The notes below the pieces were generated by a model that made no database searches, had not been told where the DNA came from, and worked only from the letters and a program-made list of their open reading frames with translations. Position numbers and translations under genes: made by a program. Positions 1,984 to 16,108 of a stretch of 22,785 bases of DNA are shown here, piece after piece; position 1 is the first letter of the stretch; every line of letters starts with the position of its first letter. The stretch is from positions 1 to 22,785 of the IMG/VR virus record IMGVR_UViG_3300025138_000394, one strand, 5' to 3'. The stretch comes from a virus.

Positions 1984-2012
1984 TTAAACACAGTACATAT
2001 TTAAACGCAGTA
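1984..2012 (+). repeat. Two copies of the TTAAACGCAGTA motif family
   Basis: TTAAACACAGTA (1984-1995) and TTAAACGCAGTA (2001-2012) lie 17 bp apart start to start. The second is identical to most units of the array at 12267-12490, where a 17-bp spacing also occurs (12462 to 12479). This shows the motif is dispersed and not a local tandem artefact. Confidence 0.85.
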
Positions 2013-8738: not shown

Positions 8739-8992
8739 TGACTAAAGAAGAGTATGACTTTGAGGTCTTAAATTATTATTACCTTGCTCTGGTTGATTTA
8801 TTGATGGGTGTTACTTATCAAGAAGTATTTAATCAGATGAAGGACTTTGAATCTTTAGAGTTGTATGAAGCTTGTGATGGGGTCAATAAAGCTTTAATAG
8901 AAGCTGATCGTTGTACCTTAAAAGAAATACAATTAGAAGTTAATAGAGTAGAATTAGAACTAGAAAGACAAAAAGACATATATGAAAACTGA
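8738..8992 (+). CDS. Hypothetical acidic helical protein, 84 aa
   Basis: The protein starts MTKEEYDFEVLNYYYLALVD and ends in a charged helix (EIQLEVNRVELELERQKDIY). It is acidic and likely all helical. No family is recognised. It is coupled to the exonuclease gene by taATG and overlaps the DnaA-like gene by 11 bases, so it is made with both and could be a small partner of either. Confidence 0.65.
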   Translation: MTKEEYDFEVLNYYYLALVDLLMGVTYQEVFNQMKDFESLELYEACDGVNKALIEADRCTLKEIQLEVNRVELELERQKDIYEN

Positions 8993-9395
8993 AGAGATAA
9001 AACAATTAGTTGAAATAGAAACTAAGATGAATTTAAGCCATCACTCAAGGATAAGAGATAGAGTGTATGCTAGAGCCGTTTACTTTAAATTATGTAAGGA
9101 GCATACCTTGTTTCCTTTAAGTGTTATTGGGAAAACTGTTGGTAAACATCACGCAAGTGTAATTCACGGCCTCAAAATATTTAATGAGATAATCTGTAAT
9201 TATGAAACAGAAAACGGATTCTATGAAATATATATTAAACTAGATAAGCTTTTGCAAAAATCAAACAATATTAGGGAAAAAGATATGTATCCTGAGCATT
9301 TCTATAGAAAAAAGTATGTTGGTCTAATACTAGATTATCGTGTGTTATTAAACGAGAACAGGAATTTAAAAAAGGAGTTATGTTCGAAGTCATAG
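8982..9395 (+). CDS. DnaA domain IV-like DNA-binding protein
   Basis: Residues about 22-68 (RIRDRVYARAVYFKLCKEHT followed by LFPLSVIGKTVGKHHASVIHGLK) match the DNA-binding domain IV of DnaA, where the helix-turn-helix ends in a signature close to GxxxxRxHTTVxHA; here it reads GKTVGKHHASVIHG. The ATPase part of DnaA is absent; a helical tail (about 105-137) follows. It could recognise a phage origin or compete for host DnaA sites. No clear cluster of DnaA boxes (TTATNCACA) was seen nearby. Confidence 0.75.
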   Translation: MKTEEIKQLVEIETKMNLSHHSRIRDRVYARAVYFKLCKEHTLFPLSVIGKTVGKHHASVIHGLKIFNEIICNYETENGFYEIYIKLDKLLQKSNNIREKDMYPEHFYRKKYVGLILDYRVLLNENRNLKKELCSKS

Positions 9396-9871: not shown

Positions 9872-10297
9872 ATGGGTAGAAAGCCGAAAGAGTTTAAGTA
9901 CATTAAGAAGAATGATGGTCGTAGGAATAATGGCAGGAAGAAGGGAGACAGTAAGAATTATCCTAAGAAAATAAATGCAACTCCCGCTGCAATAAATGAG
10001 GCCAAGAAAGATAGAATGGGTATCTATGCTTTGAATGCTATGCAAGAAGTCTTTGGCTCTGAAGAAGAGGCTTGGGCCGAGTTAGCGAAGCAAGCCAAGT
10101 CCTCTTTCGCCCATATGAAATTACTCTTTGAATATAAGTATGGCAAGCCTACAGAAAGTGTAGACTATACTAGCGGAGGTCAAAAGCTAGACATACCGAT
10201 CACAAACATATTTGCTGGAACTCAGCAGGCCCCTGAGATAGATAACACAATAGATATAACACCAGAAGATAATGAACAAGAAGAGACAGATCAATGA
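9872..10297 (+). CDS. Candidate small terminase subunit
   Basis: The 141-residue protein starts MGRKPKEFKYIKKNDGRRNN with a strongly basic tail (about 1-35), then a helical domain (about 45-100, ALNAMQEVFGSEEEAWAELA and SSFAHMKLLFEYKYGKPTES), and an acidic end. AW-x-x-LA followed by xxLLFEYxYGKP is a pattern I associate with small terminase-like proteins of Bacteroidota phages. It lies 756 bases upstream of the large terminase in the same operon. A DNA-recognition role in packaging is likely, but not certain without homology searches. Confidence 0.6.
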   Translation: MGRKPKEFKYIKKNDGRRNNGRKKGDSKNYPKKINATPAAINEAKKDRMGIYALNAMQEVFGSEEEAWAELAKQAKSSFAHMKLLFEYKYGKPTESVDYTSGGQKLDIPITNIFAGTQQAPEIDNTIDITPEDNEQEETDQ

Positions 10298-10419: not shown

Positions 10420-11076
10420 ATGAAGGTATTAGTTGCTTGTGAAGAGAGTCAGGCAGTGACCAAAGAATTTAGGGCTTTAGGCCACGAAGCCTATTCTTGT
10501 GATATACTTCCCTGTAGTGGTGGACACCCTGAATGGCATATCCAAGGGGATGCATTACAGGAGGCTAACTCTGGAAGGTATGATCTAATGGTTGCCCATC
10601 CTCCTTGTACTTATTTAGCTGTAAGTGGCAATAGGTGGTTGTATAATAAAGATGGCTCAAAGAATGAAGAGCGGTGGGAGAATAGAAACAAAGCATTATT
10701 CTTTGTCAAGCAATTGATGGATGCGCCTATAAGATATATAGCTATTGAAAATCCTATAAGTGTTATTTCATCACAAATAAGAAAACCTAATCAGGTTGTT
10801 CAGCCTTATATGTTTGGGGATGAGGCTAAGAAAACAACTTGTCTTTGGACTAAGAATTTACCTCTATTGACCGCAACCAAGATTGTATCTCAGGGTGAAT
10901 TTGTGGAGTGGACAGACAAGAAAGGAAAGGTAAAGAGAATGGCTAAATGGTATGATGACGCTAGAGGGAGTAAAGATAGAGCAAAGTTAAGAAGTAAGAC
11001 GTTTCCAGGTATAGCAAAAGCAATAGCTACCCAATACTCACAATACATATTAAATGACTCCACAGTTACACGATAA
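10420..11076 (+). CDS. C5-cytosine DNA methylase-like protein (orphan)
   Basis: The 218-residue protein starts MKVLVACEESQAVTKEFRAL followed by GHEAYSCDILP, a cofactor-binding start of C5-methyltransferase type. AHPPCTYLAVSG (about 59-70) carries the Pro-Cys motif with the likely catalytic Cys63, and IAIENPIS (about 107-114) is the ENV-like motif VI. It is shorter than host enzymes and lacks an obvious target-recognition domain; such short forms are common in phages. No restriction gene is beside it, so it may protect phage DNA from host enzymes or mark it for packaging. It overlaps the large terminase gene by 23 bases. Confidence 0.75.
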   Translation: MKVLVACEESQAVTKEFRALGHEAYSCDILPCSGGHPEWHIQGDALQEANSGRYDLMVAHPPCTYLAVSGNRWLYNKDGSKNEERWENRNKALFFVKQLMDAPIRYIAIENPISVISSQIRKPNQVVQPYMFGDEAKKTTCLWTKNLPLLTATKIVSQGEFVEWTDKKGKVKRMAKWYDDARGSKDRAKLRSKTFPGIAKAIATQYSQYILNDSTVTR

Positions 11077-12262
11077 ATACCAGGCTTTAGGAAATGACAC
11101 CCGTTACTTTGTAGTGACGGGTGGTAGGGGATCCGGTAAGTCCTTTGCAGTAAATACCTTCCTAGCTTTCCTTACGATGGAGAAGGGTCATAAGATTCTG
11201 TTCGCTAGGTATACGATGGTCTCTGCTGCTACTTCTATTATACCAGAGTTCTTGGAGAAGCTTGAGCTGTTCGGTATCGCTAAACACTTTAGGATAACTA
11301 AGGATGAGATCTTAAACACAGCCACAGGGAGCTCAATAATATTTAAAGGTATCAAGACCAGCAGCGGTAACCAAACCGCTGCCTTGAAGTCTCTACAGGG
11401 TATTACAACGTTCGTACTTGATGAAGCAGAGGAGCTTATAGATGAAGATAGTTTTGATAAGATAGATCAGTCTGTAAGGGAAAAGAATAAACAGAATAGG
11501 TGTATGCTAATCCTCAATCCAACCACAAAGGAGCATTGGATATACCAGAGGTTCTTTGCAGCCAAAAGAGTAGAAGCTGGATCGAATGCTTGGAAGGATA
11601 ACGTAACATACATTCACACTAGTTATATGGACAACAAAGATAATCTATCTAATTCTTTTGTTGAGCAGGTAGAGATGATGCGTAAGAAGAACCCAAGGAA
11701 GTATCTGCACCAGATAATGGGTGGGTGGATTGACAAGGCTGAAGGTGTGGTGATCACCAACTGGAGGACTGGCCAATTCAAAGACTACCATCAAATTGTA
11801 TACGGACAAGATTACGGATTCTCTACAGACCCCACAACGCTCGTCAGATGCTCTGTAGACACTGAACATAGGATTATGTGGGTCCAGGAGTGTTTCGTTA
11901 AGCCTGGGCTATCTACAAAAGAAATAGGCGAAAGGAATATAAGGCACGCCTTAGACTCTATAATTATAACAGACAACAATGAGCCTAGGATGATCCAGGA
12001 GCTCAGGGAGGTTTATGGCTGTAATGTAAAAGGAGCGAAGAAAGGTAAAGGGTCTATCCTTTCAGGGATAGCCCTGATGCAAGACTACGAACTTATAGTA
12101 GATGCTAAGTCAGAGAACATAATCAAGGAGCTGAATAACTATGTATGGCACGCTCGTAATGAGCGGCCAATAGACAAATGGAATCACTGTATCGATGCAA
12201 TGAGATATGCACTTCAGTTTGCGGAGGTCAATGCCAAGCGTGGTACTTATGTGATTCGGTAG
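11054..12262 (+). CDS. terL: Large terminase subunit
   Basis: The 402-residue protein has both terminase domains. The ATPase part shows Walker A GGRGSGKS (23-30), Walker B TFVLDEAEE (119-127) and the coupling motif LILNP (152-156). The nuclease part shows GQDYGF with Asp253, IITDNNEP with Asp307 and CIDAMRYAL with Asp381, the expected RNase H-like acidic triad. It belongs to the Terminase_3/PBSX-like type and drives genome packaging into proheads. It follows the candidate small subunit. Unusually, no portal or capsid gene follows; a repeat array begins five bases after the stop. Confidence 0.95.
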   Translation: MTPQLHDKYQALGNDTRYFVVTGGRGSGKSFAVNTFLAFLTMEKGHKILFARYTMVSAATSIIPEFLEKLELFGIAKHFRITKDEILNTATGSSIIFKGIKTSSGNQTAALKSLQGITTFVLDEAEELIDEDSFDKIDQSVREKNKQNRCMLILNPTTKEHWIYQRFFAAKRVEAGSNAWKDNVTYIHTSYMDNKDNLSNSFVEQVEMMRKKNPRKYLHQIMGGWIDKAEGVVITNWRTGQFKDYHQIVYGQDYGFSTDPTTLVRCSVDTEHRIMWVQECFVKPGLSTKEIGERNIRHALDSIIITDNNEPRMIQELREVYGCNVKGAKKGKGSILSGIALMQDYELIVDAKSENIIKELNNYVWHARNERPIDKWNHCIDAMRYALQFAEVNAKRGTYVIR

Positions 12263-12266
12263 ATTA

Positions 12267-12490
12267 TTAAACGCAGTAGGGGTAGATTCTTAAACGCAGT
12301 GGCCCCGAAATCATTAAACGCAGTAGGCCCAGGAACTCGCACCTGGATTCTTAAACGCAGTAGGTCCAGGAACCAGGATCCAGGCTCTTAAACGCAGTAG
12401 GTCCAGGAACCAGGATCCAGGCTCTTAAACGCAGTAGGTCCAGGAACCAGGATCCAGGCTCTTAAACGCAGTACCCCCTTAAACGCAGTA
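12267..12490 (+). repeat. Eight-copy array of TTAAACGCAGTA, partly with 37-bp period
   Basis: Copies start at 12267, 12290, 12314, 12351, 12388, 12425, 12462 and 12479. Seven are exact; the one at 12290 ends in G. Spacings are 23, 24, 37, 37, 37, 37 and 17 bp. In the 37-bp units the filler (GGTCCAGGAACC... GGATCCAGGCTC) is itself repeated, so two or more whole units are identical. The copy at 12314 is followed by a small hairpin (CCAGG...CCTGG). There is no CRISPR-like pattern, because the fillers are the same. Iterons for a DNA-binding protein, a packaging or replication site, or a recombination boundary are possible. Confidence 0.92.
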
Positions 12491-12671
12491 CCCCCCGCAA
12501 ATCCACTATTTAGATTCATTATTGATAAGGGTTTAGGTTTGGATATATTCAAAATCTTTCGTAAATACCGCGCGCCCGTTCCTATTATATATAGTTTAGA
12601 ATTCATTTTGTAAAGATCCCCCACCCACAATTAAAAAAAAAGTAGGGGGGGTACTTGATTTTTATTTTTAT
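12491..12671 (+). other. Non-coding spacer between repeat array and cassette promoter
   Basis: No credible gene is seen. The stretch holds a GC-rich patch (CCGCGCGCCCG near 12570), an A/T-rich patch, and an imperfect inverted arrangement of C-rich (CCCCCACCC near 12620) and G-rich (G7 near 12644-12650) tracts around a run of nine A. Any hairpin formed by these tracts lacks a clean T run. Confidence 0.6.
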
Positions 12672-12704
12672 TTGTTTTATGTGTTCATAAAATGTTTATA
12701 TTTG
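12672..12704 (+). promoter_or_regulatory. Consensus Bacteroidota promoter of the cassette
   Basis: TATATTTG at 12697-12704 is an exact TAnnTTTG -7 element, with TTG at 12672-12674 and a 22-base spacer. It is closer to the host consensus than the TTGC-type sites of the phage early block, and lies 24 bases before the first start codon of the cassette. Confidence 0.65.
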
Positions 12705-12728: not shown

Positions 12729-12812
12729 ATGAAACTATTTATTAACCTTTATCTATTTGCTTTCGGTTTTTATATCGTCGGGCATTTTATCAATTATTTT
12801 ATTAACCTTTAA
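12729..12812 (+). CDS. Tiny membrane peptide or leader, 27 aa
   Basis: MKLFINLYLFAFGFYIVGHF followed by INYFINL is a single hydrophobic, Phe/Tyr-rich segment. It is the first frame after the cassette promoter and has the same A-rich ACACA/ACAAA leader before ATG as the genes after it, which supports translation. It could be a membrane peptide or a leader influencing the next gene. No family is recognised. Confidence 0.45.
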   Translation: MKLFINLYLFAFGFYIVGHFINYFINL

Positions 12813-12822
12813 TTATTACAAA

Positions 12823-13173
12823 ATGGAAACTTTAAACTATTACGAATTACTAGAAAAGACAAAAGGCGGAAAAATCTTTTCCCTTACTTATTCGCGCGCT
12901 GACAAATCATTGGGCGCGGGAAAATTTAGATTTGGCGTTAAATCTTATTTAAAAGGTGGATCTTTAAAATATGATCCGATCAAGGCTAAAAATTTGGTTT
13001 TGTTTAATATGTCAAAAAAACAATATCGCACCATCAAATTTGAGCGGATTATATCCGCAAAAATTGACGGGGTAGAATATAAATTTTTCAATGATACATT
13101 TGCAAACTCAATGGAGCGTATCGACAAAGCAATTAAAAACATTAATAAATTAAATAAAATAATTAACAGATGA
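12823..13173 (+). CDS. SH3-like beta-barrel protein (DUF2693-like)
   Basis: The 116-residue product starts METLNYYELLEKTKGGKIFS and contains KIFSLTYSRADKSLGAGKFR, GVKSYLKGG, KNLVLFNMSKKQYRTIKFER and IISAKIDGVEY. The series kIFsvty...GkxRxxxxxGVkxxxkGG...Lvxxxdxxkxxyrtixxdriisxk is what I know from the Bacteroidota SH3 beta-barrel fold family near DUF2693. Its role is unknown. The frame extends upstream to 12757 but overlaps the tiny peptide; the ATG at 12823 with the ACAAA leader is chosen. Its codons include CGC, CGG and CGT for Arg, unlike most of the window. Confidence 0.75.
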   Translation: METLNYYELLEKTKGGKIFSLTYSRADKSLGAGKFRFGVKSYLKGGSLKYDPIKAKNLVLFNMSKKQYRTIKFERIISAKIDGVEYKFFNDTFANSMERIDKAIKNINKLNKIINR

Positions 13174-13391
13174 AAACACAAAAAAAATTTTATTGGAGTC
13201 CGCAAACTATAGATTTTTTTCAGCTATTAAAAAATAGTGAAGGAAATGAAAAAATGAAAGAAAGTATATCAATTTTTATTCATAATGAATGCGATTTAGA
13301 AGACAATGAAACATTTGAAGACTTGATAGATGATTTGATTTTTCAAGTTGAAAACACAACTTTAGAAGAAATAGAAAATTTAAAAAAATAA
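13170..13391 (+). CDS. Hypothetical acidic protein, 73 aa
   Basis: The ATG overlaps the stop of the SH3-like gene (ATGA). The product starts MKTQKKFYWSPQTIDFFQLL and is strongly acidic in its second half (CDLEDNETFEDLIDDLIFQV, TTLEEIENL). It is likely helical. No family is recognised. It is translationally coupled to its neighbour and belongs to the cassette operon. Confidence 0.6.
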   Translation: MKTQKKFYWSPQTIDFFQLLKNSEGNEKMKESISIFIHNECDLEDNETFEDLIDDLIFQVENTTLEEIENLKK

Positions 13392-13395
13392 TAAT

Positions 13396-13533
13396 ATGAG
13401 TAATGAAATGTTAATAAAAATTTACGATGAATTAATAGTTTTATATGATTTTTATAATGATTTAAATGATGAAGATGGATTAAGAAATGTAAATCATATT
13501 TTAAATGAATTAAATAAAAATATAAAAGAATAA
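13396..13533 (+). CDS. Small hypothetical protein, 45 aa
   Basis: MSNEMLIKIYDELIVLYDFY continues NDLNDEDGLRNVNHILNELN and ends KNIKE. It is a short acidic helical protein, very AT-rich. It lies four bases after the gene before and five before the next, in the same operon. Even spacing and the A-rich start region support it; no family is recognised. Confidence 0.5.
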   Translation: MSNEMLIKIYDELIVLYDFYNDLNDEDGLRNVNHILNELNKNIKE

Positions 13534-13538
13534 ACAAA

Positions 13539-13763
13539 ATGAAAACTAGAAAACAAAACGAAACATTTTTTGGTGATGGGTATATTTTAGAATATACTTT
13601 AATTCAAACCAAATGGGCGGGTGATAATGATACCCCGCCCGCGGAAGATTGGGAAATTGAAAACGTATCAATTCAAAAAGAAAATCACGAACATTTTGAT
13701 TTACCTATTGAATTTGTAGAGCGGTTTAATATTAACGACAAATTAATTAATTATGATTACTAA
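13539..13763 (+). CDS. Hypothetical protein, 74 aa
   Basis: The product starts MKTRKQNETFFGDGYILEYT and is likely beta-rich at first (YILEYTLIQTKWAGDNDTPP) then acidic (HFDLPIEFVERFNINDKLIN). It has the ACAAAATG start context of the cassette. It overlaps the GP88-like gene by 11 bases, so the two are probably made together. No family is recognised. Confidence 0.6.
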   Translation: MKTRKQNETFFGDGYILEYTLIQTKWAGDNDTPPAEDWEIENVSIQKENHEHFDLPIEFVERFNINDKLINYDY

Positions 13764-14517
13764 TTATAAAATACCCGCGCGCCTATTAAGCGCGGGTATA
13801 TCAAACGCGAAGACAAAGAAAAACGAATTAAAAACCTTTATACTTTATTTGGCACCCTATACACAAAACTACAAAGGTGTTAACATATGCCCAAAGGCTT
13901 CAAAAGGATGCGCGGCAGCTTGTTTATTTACAGCGGGGCGGGGTGCGTTTAATAACGTACAAAACGCCCGTATTAATAAAACAAACTTTTACATTGAAAA
14001 CAAAAGTTTATTTATTAAAAAGTTAGCGGGTGAAATAATCAAAGAAACTGCAAAGGCTAAGAAGAAAGGCGAAAAAATTGCCTTTCGTTTAAATGGTACG
14101 TCTGATATTGATTTCATTTACTTACTTGAAAAATACGCGGGTTTAAATATTAAAGACCTAAGCCCGCACGCGGTCTTTTATGATTATACTAAGATCATTG
14201 GCAAAGTAAAAAAGTATCTTAATCATCCTAATTATTATTTAACCTTTTCACGGGCGGAAGATAACGAAACAGAAACAATGCAAGCCCTACAAATGGGCGC
14301 TAATGTTTCCGCGGTCTTTTCCCTGGATCTACCAGGAACCTGGAGCGGGTTCAAGGTTGTGGACGGTGACGTGAGCGATTTAGTAATGCTGACCGCCAAA
14401 AACAGCATCTTAGGTTTACGGGCAAAAGGTAAGGCCCGCAAAGATGACAGCGGATTTACAATTAATAGCAATAAACTAAACACAAAACAAAATGAGCAAA
14501 TCAAAGCAACAGTTTGA
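13753..14517 (+). CDS. GP88/DUF7227-like phage protein with Cys cluster
   Basis: The 254-residue protein shows the hallmarks I know from the Gene product 88 / DUF7227 group: an N-terminal NAKTKKNE followed by LYLAPY, a Cys cluster VNICPKASKGCAAACLFTAG (Cys46, Cys53, Cys57; C-x6-C-x3-C), RGAFNNVQNARINKT, FRLNGTSDIDF (about 111-121), VFYDYTK (about 141-147) and YLTFSRAED (about 162-170). The three Cys could hold zinc or an iron-sulfur cluster; the reaction is unknown. All seven Arg codons are CGN, with none AGA or AGG, against the AGA/AGG preference of the flanking phage genes. It is the largest gene of the cassette. Confidence 0.8.
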   Translation: MITNYKIPARLLSAGISNAKTKKNELKTFILYLAPYTQNYKGVNICPKASKGCAAACLFTAGRGAFNNVQNARINKTNFYIENKSLFIKKLAGEIIKETAKAKKKGEKIAFRLNGTSDIDFIYLLEKYAGLNIKDLSPHAVFYDYTKIIGKVKKYLNHPNYYLTFSRAEDNETETMQALQMGANVSAVFSLDLPGTWSGFKVVDGDVSDLVMLTAKNSILGLRAKGKARKDDSGFTINSNKLNTKQNEQIKATV

Positions 14518-14683
14518 ACACTACAGAAAACAAAGCAAAGAAATAAAAAAGCTTTATCCAATTAGAAAAGCTTTATCTATAATTGAATATGATATAACCG
14601 ACCCCGCGGAATATTACATAACAGATAACAAAACATTCTATAAAAGAATTAAACAAACCGAATTTATAAACCTAACAAAATGA
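14492..14683 (+). CDS. Small hypothetical basic protein, 63 aa
   Basis: The frame starts inside the end of the GP88-like gene (26-base overlap) with the ACAAAATG context shared by the cassette genes, which decides this start. The product begins MSKSKQQFEHYRKQSKEIKK, is Lys/Tyr-rich and contains ITDPAEYYITDNKTFYKRIK. It overlaps the next gene by four bases (ATGA). No family is recognised; the basic start suggests nucleic-acid contact. Confidence 0.55.
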   Translation: MSKSKQQFEHYRKQSKEIKKLYPIRKALSIIEYDITDPAEYYITDNKTFYKRIKQTEFINLTK

Positions 14684-14886
14684 AGATACAAGAAACAATA
14701 CACGAAGAAGTAAACATTTGCGGGCTTATGCTCCCACAAAAAGAAGTTAATAACATATATGTTGACTTTGAAACAAATGACAAACTATATAGATTTGATT
14801 TAAAGCCTACCGACTTTTTAGAATGGTTTGACAATGAAAGTATTAAACAAATAAAAGACTATATAAATAAAAAGTATTGCACTTAA
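14680..14886 (+). CDS. Hypothetical protein, 68 aa, last cassette gene
   Basis: The product starts MKIQETIHEEVNICGLMLPQ and contains YVDFETNDKLYRFDLKPTDF and a basic end (INKKYCT). It is coupled to the gene before by ATGA. A strong terminator follows 25 bases after its stop, closing the operon. No family is recognised. Confidence 0.6.
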   Translation: MKIQETIHEEVNICGLMLPQKEVNNIYVDFETNDKLYRFDLKPTDFLEWFDNESIKQIKDYINKKYCT

Positions 14887-14986: not shown

Positions 14987-15040
14987 TTAAACATAGGCCC
15001 AGGAGCCCCTCAGAGGGCTTCTAAGGGCCTTAAACATAGG
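14987..15040 (+). repeat. TTAAACATAGG direct repeats flanking a hairpin
   Basis: TTAAACATAGG occurs at 14987-14997 and 15030-15040. Between them AGGCCC (14995-15000) pairs with GGGCCT (15025-15030), and GAGCCC pairs with GGGCTTC with one bulge around a short loop. The first copy runs on as GGCCCAGGAGCCCC, close to the array copy at 12314 (GGCCCAGGAACTCG). So the right side of the cassette carries a diverged relative of the left-side repeats. Confidence 0.75.
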
Positions 15041-15088: not shown

Positions 15089-15186
15089 AACGTAAAACGG
15101 GCCAAATCCGTTATAGTATATTGACTTTTATAAAATCAACGTAAAACGGGCCCGAATGGATATAGTATATCCGGTTTAATAAAATC
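15089..15186 (+). repeat. 49-bp tandem repeat with palindrome
   Basis: AACGTAAAACGGGCC occurs at 15089-15103 and 15138-15152, and the following sequence also repeats (TATAGTATAT, then TTnATAAAATCAA), giving two 49-bp units. The second contains the perfect inverted repeat GGATATA-G-TATATCC (15158-15172); the first has a degenerate form. Two matching sites 49 bp apart upstream of the tail operon look like paired operator or activator sites. Confidence 0.75.
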
Positions 15187-15403
15187 AAGCGGTTTAGAAA
15201 ACTGTGTCAAGAGAAGTAAACCTTAAGATAAAAACATAGTTAACCCAAAGCCTCTATATTAATTCTCAGTATAAATATTGAATTGTCATTGTTGTTCGTT
15301 TAATCTCTCACAATTCCAATTATATATTAATATAACCATTTTTTTCACCTTTTGTTTTATTTTTACTTATGGTACAATTAACCTGCATATTGGTTATATT
15401 AGT

Positions 15404-16108
15404 ATGAAGCAATTTAAGATAGACATCCCCAAGTCGCTACGAGGGATTCCTCTAAAGGAATACCAAAGGTTTTTTAAAGTATCAGAAGATAATAAAGAAG
15501 CCAAAGATCCAGAATTCTTAAACCTTAAGATGTTAGAGATCTTTTGCGGCTTAAGCTTAAAGGAGGCTTATAATATGAAATTGACTGATTTTAGCTTTAT
15601 AATTAATCACCTTAATGAGTTATTTAAGCAAGAGACACCTATGATTAATAAGTTCTCCTTAAAGGACCCAAAAGGGGATGAGGTAGAGTTTGGTTTTATA
15701 CCTAGGCTTGATGATATATCCCTAGGAGAGTTTGTTGACTTAGACACCTATGTTTCAGACTGGAGTGATATGCACAAAGCTATGGCAGTATTATATAGGC
15801 CAATAACCTTTGATAAGAGGGGTATGTATCTTATAGAGGATTATGAAAGCTCAGATAAATACTCAGAGGTAATGAAAGATATGCCTATTGATATAGCAAT
15901 CGGAGCTGTTGTTTTTTTTTATCGTTTAGGGAAAGAACTGTCAATTTATTTAACGGGTTATTTGAAGGAGCAGATGAAGAAGGAGGACTCGGAGCTGAGG
16001 CAAGCTTTGGACGAAAATGGGGTTGGTATCAATCAATTTATGCAATCGCTAAAGGAGACCTCCTCAAATTTGAAGAAGTTGCACAACTCAAGGTTACACA
16101 AGCCTTAA
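15404..16108 (+). CDS. Tail assembly chaperone, unshifted product (G-like)
   Basis: The 234-residue product starts MKQFKIDIPKSLRGIPLKEY with a helical body (FLNLKMLEIFCGLSLKEAYN), a beta-rich part (NKFSLKDPKGDEVEFGFIPR) and a helical region ending in FFYRLGKELSIYLTGYLKEQ. This build, and its place just upstream of tail completion and tape-measure genes, fits the tail assembly chaperones of Bacteroidota phages, which coat the tape measure during tail building, as lambda G does. The frame is open from 15278, but ATG 15404 fits the family start. A T9 run at 15912-15920 allows a -1 shift into a second conserved domain. Confidence 0.75.
   Translation: MKQFKIDIPKSLRGIPLKEYQRFFKVSEDNKEAKDPEFLNLKMLEIFCGLSLKEAYNMKLTDFSFIINHLNELFKQETPMINKFSLKDPKGDEVEFGFIPRLDDISLGEFVDLDTYVSDWSDMHKAMAVLYRPITFDKRGMYLIEDYESSDKYSEVMKDMPIDIAIGAVVFFYRLGKELSIYLTGYLKEQMKKEDSELRQALDENGVGINQFMQSLKETSSNLKKLHNSRLHKP
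15913..15919 (+). promoter_or_regulatory. Putative -1 frameshift slippery heptamer (T TTT TTT)
   Basis: The chaperone frame reads GTT GTT TTT TTT TAT here, so 15913-15919 is a perfect X XXY YYZ heptamer of seven T within a run of nine T. The -1 frame becomes open only at 15892 (a TGA lies at 15889-15891) and stays open to 16173, so the site is placed just where a shift would work. Slippage by RNA polymerase on T9 is an alternative mechanism. Confidence 0.7.

Follow-up and report, generated by a model that had tools for sequence, protein, structure and literature searches.

What is the function of the short direct repeats that lie immediately behind the terminase large subunit (TerL) gene of this uncultured phage? 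The window analysed here is an entire IMG/VR virus record of 22,785 bases, classed as linear. Its genes include ERF, AAA_25, RusA, sigma-like, PDDEXK exonuclease-like and DnaA-IV-like genes, a probable terminase small subunit (TerS), TerL, an accessory block containing GP88, and late genes. An initial annotation had described the repeats as iteron-like and had considered a replication origin, a packaging start site, a recombination boundary or sites for a phage regulator. We tentatively favour another reading, in which the array is a directional, protein-bound boundary at operon 3' ends that would stop or insulate transcription.

The array in the window

The main array (12267..12490, + strand) contains eight copies of TTAAACGCAGT(A/G) with linkers of 11, 12, 25, 25, 25, 25 and 5 nt. 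Exact copies of TTAAACGCAGTA start at 12267, 12314, 12351, 12388, 12425, 12462 and 12479. The remaining copy, at 12290, is the one-base variant TTAAACGCAGTG and is the only one of the eight to end in G. A base-by-base check agrees with the eight copies and the spacings of 23, 24, 37, 37, 37, 37 and 17 bp given initially. The repeated filler reported in the 37-bp units is recovered by TRF as a 37-bp period with 4.3 copies and 93% matches, and TRF also detects a 17-bp period. The array is not assembly noise, because near relatives carry it with one 37-bp unit, although the exact number of four 37-bp steps in the window is based on a single contig. A minor pair at 1984..2012 (+ strand), between the end of the lysis genes and the first early gene, consists of TTAAACACAGTA at 1984, 5 nt and TTAAACGCAGTA at 2001. 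It confirms the second site with 17-bp spacing, lies 10.3 kb from the main array and has a counterpart at the corresponding position of G001 and G005. With up to two mismatches, the window has 16 motif matches versus a mean of 2.8 in shuffled sequence, and none of 100 shuffles reaches 16. Copies with no more than one mismatch number ten, and every one of them is on the + strand. A degenerate pair of TTAAACATAGG at 14987 and 15030 was considered as a right-hand boundary and rejected, as such a copy is found there in just 4 of 30 genomes.

The TerL gene (11054..12262, + strand; Pfam PF04466/PF17288, PHROG phrog_2) ends with the stop codon TAG at 12260-12262. The array does follow this stop directly, but after four bases rather than the five first stated. 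Just upstream of TerL is the probable TerS gene (9872..10297, + strand), whose product is a candidate array binder. In the window it has no Pfam or NCBIfam match, and it has N- and C-terminal motifs in common with the protein at the same place in L087, L088 and Nonlabens phage P12024L. A TerS-like protein occurs in 30 of 31 genomes, G028 being the exception. The protein with DnaA domain IV-like features (8982..9395, + strand; Pfam PF08299) was also considered. It is present in 31 of 31 genomes and would be a weak candidate binder, since its alignment has no invariant column while the motif is almost invariant.

About 180 bp after the array, a promoter-like site of Bacteroidetes type for the accessory genes was read from the sequence at 12671..12704 (+ strand; TTTG, 22 nt, TATATTTG). 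The accessory block (12729..14886, + strand) follows, includes the GP88 gene at 13753-14517 and is absent from the array-less relatives. Directly after the promoter-like site is a 27-codon hydrophobic ORF (12729-12812), the start of which recurs, by eye, in several relatives. The stretches 15089-15188 and 15340-15376 hold a 49-bp element (AACGTAAAACGG...AATAAAATCA) that occurs twice, then a leader and a late-promoter-like GTTNTATTTT...TATGGTACA; a late gene of phrog_32199 type (15404..16108, + strand) comes next. The promoter-like part recurs upstream of the late gene in most relatives.

Several familiar classes do not describe the array. It has no GC-rich hairpin with T-run of its own, as expected for an intrinsic terminator. 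A structured RNA element was rejected (z-score 0.69, no Rfam match, linkers unpaired), and so were hairpins formed by the linkers, which have no clear pairing excess at any register. A CRISPR array would come with cas genes and with regular, unique spacers between repeats of some 23-50 bp. Here, the core is 12 bp, the linkers are irregular and no cas match was found among the window proteins searched.

Conservation among related phages

A TerL search of viral contigs gave 130 stretches, of which 80 loci were kept. A search by array pattern, ignoring TerL, gave at least 119 stretches, and among the matches listed nearly every sufficiently long locus has this TerL beside the array. A second form of the motif, TTAAACATAGTA, with AT for GC at positions 7-8, was found in at least 120 stretches. 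Among the AT-form matches listed, 30 records were searched for TerL. Seven were positive, and these are seven of the eight that reach 22 kb or more; the remaining long record, G043, carries what appears to be a chance coding repeat. The 22 shorter records, none longer than about 21 kb, are fragments that yielded no TerL. In one large subclade, and in a few others, the AT form predominates. Arrays that mix the two forms are common, so both are probably accepted by a single reader. Positions 7-8 are almost always GC or AT, with AC or GT in 5 of 550 and 4 of 497 copies.

At least two motif copies lie within 700 bp of TerL in 229 of 245 related loci (those whose TerL could be aligned across more than 330 residues), and these 229 represent 136 distinct TerL sequences. 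Of the other 16 loci, nine break off within 300 bp downstream, and in L103, L138, L297 and L301 the array overlaps the stop or is farther off. True absence is confined to L086-L088, the most distant of the 245. Close relatives keep the motif; its absence from them had been named initially as a refuting condition, and this refutation fails. The GC-form array was found in no stretch of a bacterial and archaeal genome collection (84,980 species). Among known phages, the window had no megablast match and the array no distant blastn match. The nearest cultured TerL is that of Nonlabens phage P12024L/S (50.6%), and the TerL region of P12024L has no array. From this seawater phage and the promoter style, the phages are predicted to be marine with flavobacterial hosts. 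In the literature, searches for the motif strings returned no paper with a related title, and those for terminase-linked repeats, iterons and intergenic repeats returned no title match. All array-bearing relatives are metagenome contigs with mechanical ORFs as gene calls, and many loci are close relatives or overlap; counts were deduplicated by sequence or clustered where stated. Removed before counting were L001-L008 (window duplicates), L252 (P12024L) and L099, a contig of 193 kb whose 12-bp tandem repeat was considered unrelated; L254 was left out of the linker-parity scan count only.

Orientation, spacing and gene context

The motif is oriented almost exclusively one way. There are 262 forward and 3 reverse copies in 31 records, and 445 and 10 in 40 near-complete records; records were turned to the majority strand before counting, and TerL is then forward in 31 of 31. 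The 40 near-complete records carry 95 arrays, one to four per genome (just one in 12 of the 40), and 92 of these arrays have genes on both sides. Arrays are not limited to TerL; the other genes that have one at the 3' end belong to the accessory, lysis and structural groups. The first copy abuts an ORF stop codon in 57 of 114 non-redundant arrays, compared with 6 of 114 for the second copy, 7 of 114 for the last and 286 of 5700 (5%) at random, where an ORF of at least 30 codons had to end between -10 and +4 of the motif start. At the commonest offset (27), the motif's own TAA, inside TTAAAC, is the stop codon of the upstream gene. Gene calls give the same picture (47 of 92 arrays anchored, versus 5.6 expected).

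Some observations on placement count against the boundary reading. Half of the arrays have no detectable stop codon at the first copy, and of gaps of at least 300 bp, 44 have an array and 85 do not. In 17 genomes chosen out of the 31, ORFs contain 30 + strand copies versus 3.5 expected from synonymous-codon shuffles. Many of these are shared by descent, and the excess is not predicted by a 3'-end role. In L009/L126, a minus-strand small gene lies between the TerL stop and the array while array orientation is kept, which also speaks against this reading. L020, L026 and L029 have a plus-strand small gene in that place, and the array is otherwise little changed. In many relatives TerL itself contains single + strand copies, 223/220 and 866 bp before the gene end, and these recur in several clades.

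Linkers between neighbouring copies follow an unusual rule. Odd lengths account for 252 of the 274 distinct linkers in which no further copy is hidden, for 81 of 95 after clustering and for six of seven in the window. Two collection scans, which permitted every linker length of 5-35 or 3-33, gave 72 odd to 13 even and 94 odd to 10 even exact-match pairs among the matches listed. After clustering, again among the matches listed, the ratios are 36 to 11 (p=3.5e-4) and 35 to 9 (p=1.1e-4). The preference depends on distance: odd and even linkers number 254 and 29 at 13-60 bp, 10 and 8 at 61-200 bp, 17 and 9 at 201-700 bp, 56 and 29 at 701-2000 bp, and 53 and 49 at 2-6 kb. The leftover odd excess up to 2 kb may reflect shared descent. 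Helical phasing was rejected, because linkers of 5, 7, 9, 11, 13, 15 and 17 nt all occur. As the spacing has no helical phase, no cooperative geometry on double-stranded DNA is implied. Odd linkers are not accounted for by the boundary reading and count against it; they are a sharp regularity that every mechanism must account for.

Downstream of the arrays, several elements are enriched. A terminator-like hairpin with T-run overlaps the last copy or follows within 122 nt in 56 of 292 distinct arrays; five shuffles gave 9-13 of 292, and control stretches 14 of 273. By the criterion used, this is just 19% of arrays, which again weighs against the boundary reading. Within 250 bp after an array lie 17 of 17 triple TTAAC repeats with 11-bp steps in the 40 genomes (0.5 expected), 9 of 10 TTTAGAATNATTCTAAA-like palindromes (0.2 expected) and 66 of 965 TAnnTTTG elements (18.2 expected). 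The TTAAC repeats often end at a TAnnTTTG element (for example in G009, G010, G013, G014, G031 and G056), and the palindrome lies about 10-28 bp after arrays in G021, G004, G020 and others. The distance from array to TTAAC repeats is loose (31-244 bp), while that to the stop codon is tight. We take the palindrome to resemble a Fur/Irr-type box (a literature search on the Fur box gave no match) and the TTAAC repeats to resemble Pho-box-type operators or promoters of phage accessory genes. PMC10976474 gives the cyanobacterial Pho-box consensus as PyTTAAPyPyT/A and describes binding of PhoB to phage promoters; it also warns that Pho boxes predicted in phages are unreliable.

The arrays are tied to accessory genes. 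In array-less P12024L, TerL is followed directly by the homologue of the late gene at 15404, and in L087 and L088 one small gene lies between; all three are also without an accessory block. Where the array is present, TerL and the late gene are 2.6-5.8 kb apart, with accessory genes between them (29 genomes; G008 is cut there and was not counted). The number of arrays in the block rises with its length (Spearman 0.78, n=29; the genomes are related, which makes the p-value optimistic). The 900 bp ahead of the late gene were free of the motif in all 30 genomes examined. The boundary between accessory and late genes carries no array, so an array is not present at every operon end, another point against the boundary reading. 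In the window and many relatives, other elements (the 49-bp repeat and leader) occupy this place.

A proposed boundary role, its alternatives and known systems

The conserved motif has one orientation, a fixed upstream stop codon, promoter-type elements at loose distances downstream, several unphased independent sites and a number that scales with accessory length. For these reasons a polar boundary seems more likely to us than an operator, a single replication origin or a packaging site. The array would comprise several sites of about 12-17 bp, with the core TTAAAC(GC or AT)AGTR, usually then GG or CC, each bound by a sequence-specific, probably phage-encoded protein. Action on DNA rather than RNA is presumed. 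The bound array may act as a polar roadblock or terminator for polymerases arriving from the upstream operon and would shield the next, separately promoted accessory unit from them. The main array would close the TerL operon, and accessory or structural units farther on would be closed by the additional arrays. A second effect may be the stalling of replication forks, which has been proposed for oriR of phage SPP1. If the polar boundary holds, lytic phages could attach independently regulated cargo without read-through. In any case, the array defines a widespread, probably marine lineage of uncultured phages, marks their hypervariable accessory region and ties that region to operon ends.

The main rival, possible but unlikely in our estimate, is a replication element of the SPP1 oriL/oriR type. 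Initiator-bound iterons of the array on the TerL side would fire replication or stall a fork, and so cause the switch to concatemers. The array does consist of direct repeats of one short motif in the same orientation, which supports the iteron-like form recognised initially. The second site 10.3 kb away fits as well, and so does the gene content of the phage, with an ERF recombinase, a RusA resolvase, a PDDEXK exonuclease-like protein and an AAA_25 ATPase. However, a genome has up to four arrays, their number tied to accessory length; the spacing has no helical phase, and the DnaA-IV-like protein no invariant column. No AT-rich unwinding element specific to arrays was found (64-74% AT per 50 bp, versus 67-71% in other gaps). 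The check on GC skew proposed for a replication start gave no switch at the array in nine genomes, where skew is positive almost throughout, a result that is uninformative if replication is unidirectional. The occurrence of arrays at several places weakens the proposal of a single replication origin.

We consider a pac or cosB-like packaging site, recognised by the small terminase, improbable. The constant place 3' of TerL in most loci, the strict linkage to one TerL clade and the widespread TerS-like protein all agree with it. A packaging site should be unique in a genome and near the terminase genes, whereas arrays recur at the 3' ends of unrelated genes, which weakens the packaging start put forward earlier. 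Contig starts cluster 0.4-4.7 kb ahead of ERF in 18 of the 30 records that carry this gene, away from the array, though only hypervariable tail-fibre genes may be behind this. Exact end repeats of 82-127 bases in 4 of 31 records (G008, G013, G024 and G028) have their ends at different places and are compatible with circularly closed, permuted genomes. Both the replication-origin and packaging-site readings are weaker than the polar boundary.

That the array is a set of operators for the promoter of the accessory gene behind it is doubtful, and we rank this after packaging. Promoter-type elements do cluster within 250 bp downstream, but their distance is loose, the fixed neighbour is the upstream stop codon, and some gene-end arrays precede a terminator-like hairpin instead. 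Still less credible to us is a recombination joint, in which homology islands serve ERF-type annealing to swap accessory cassettes and have no other function. In 20 near-relative loci, TerL and array are 91-97% conserved while the next kb aligns over only 6-42%, which supports the recombination-boundary context suggested earlier. Copy number also varies: G019 carries TerL and array at both ends (first and last ~1.4 kb), 94.8% identical over 1318 bp, with 3 versus 4 copies, and is probably two strains joined. This joint nevertheless predicts neither a near-invariant core across TerL proteins of ~60% identity, nor co-orientation, nor odd linkers. Least probable, and very unlikely, is a machine that reads the array while moving one way along DNA or RNA in two-nucleotide steps; one orientation would then be expected, odd spacing would let a copy be met in phase in either register, and arrays would be two-register stop or unloading signals, like stop codons in every reading frame.

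Among known systems, polar terminator and fork-barrier arrays such as the rDNA Sal boxes bound by TTF-I, or Tus-Ter, likewise have several copies in one orientation at the 3' ends of transcription units. Unlike the phage array, they are eukaryotic or chromosomal and have a known binder, and we claim no homology. The cosB R sites of lambda are multiple TerS sites near terminase genes, and the phage array resembles them and SPP1 pac in being multiple and close to terminase genes. SPP1 pac differs in overlapping the start of the TerS gene (PMC6316719), whereas the present array follows TerL and recurs elsewhere. SPP1 oriR combines direct repeats with an AT-rich region to which gp38 binds, and it belongs to a moron segment within the late genes. 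The distance to oriL is ~13 kb, and concatemer formation is proposed to be triggered when forks stall at gp38-oriR (PMC6316719). By this account, such arrays can also serve replication. The phage resembles this Bacillus phage in having direct repeats in a moron segment among packaging and late genes, a second site ~10-13 kb off and recombination genes whose products would process forks that stall. In SPP1 the initiator is known and an AT-rich unwinding element is present. Neither was found for the present arrays, of which up to four occur per genome and half are stop-anchored. MacGregor 2015 (PMC4679880) describes intergenic TAACTGA direct repeats, of unknown function, in Beggiatoaceae, Cyanobacteria and some Bacteroidetes. 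These repeats are also short and oriented, and some overlap the stop codon of the upstream gene. They are cellular 7-mers, mostly upstream of start codons in that account, while the array described here is a phage 12-mer with variable linkers, anchored at stop codons.
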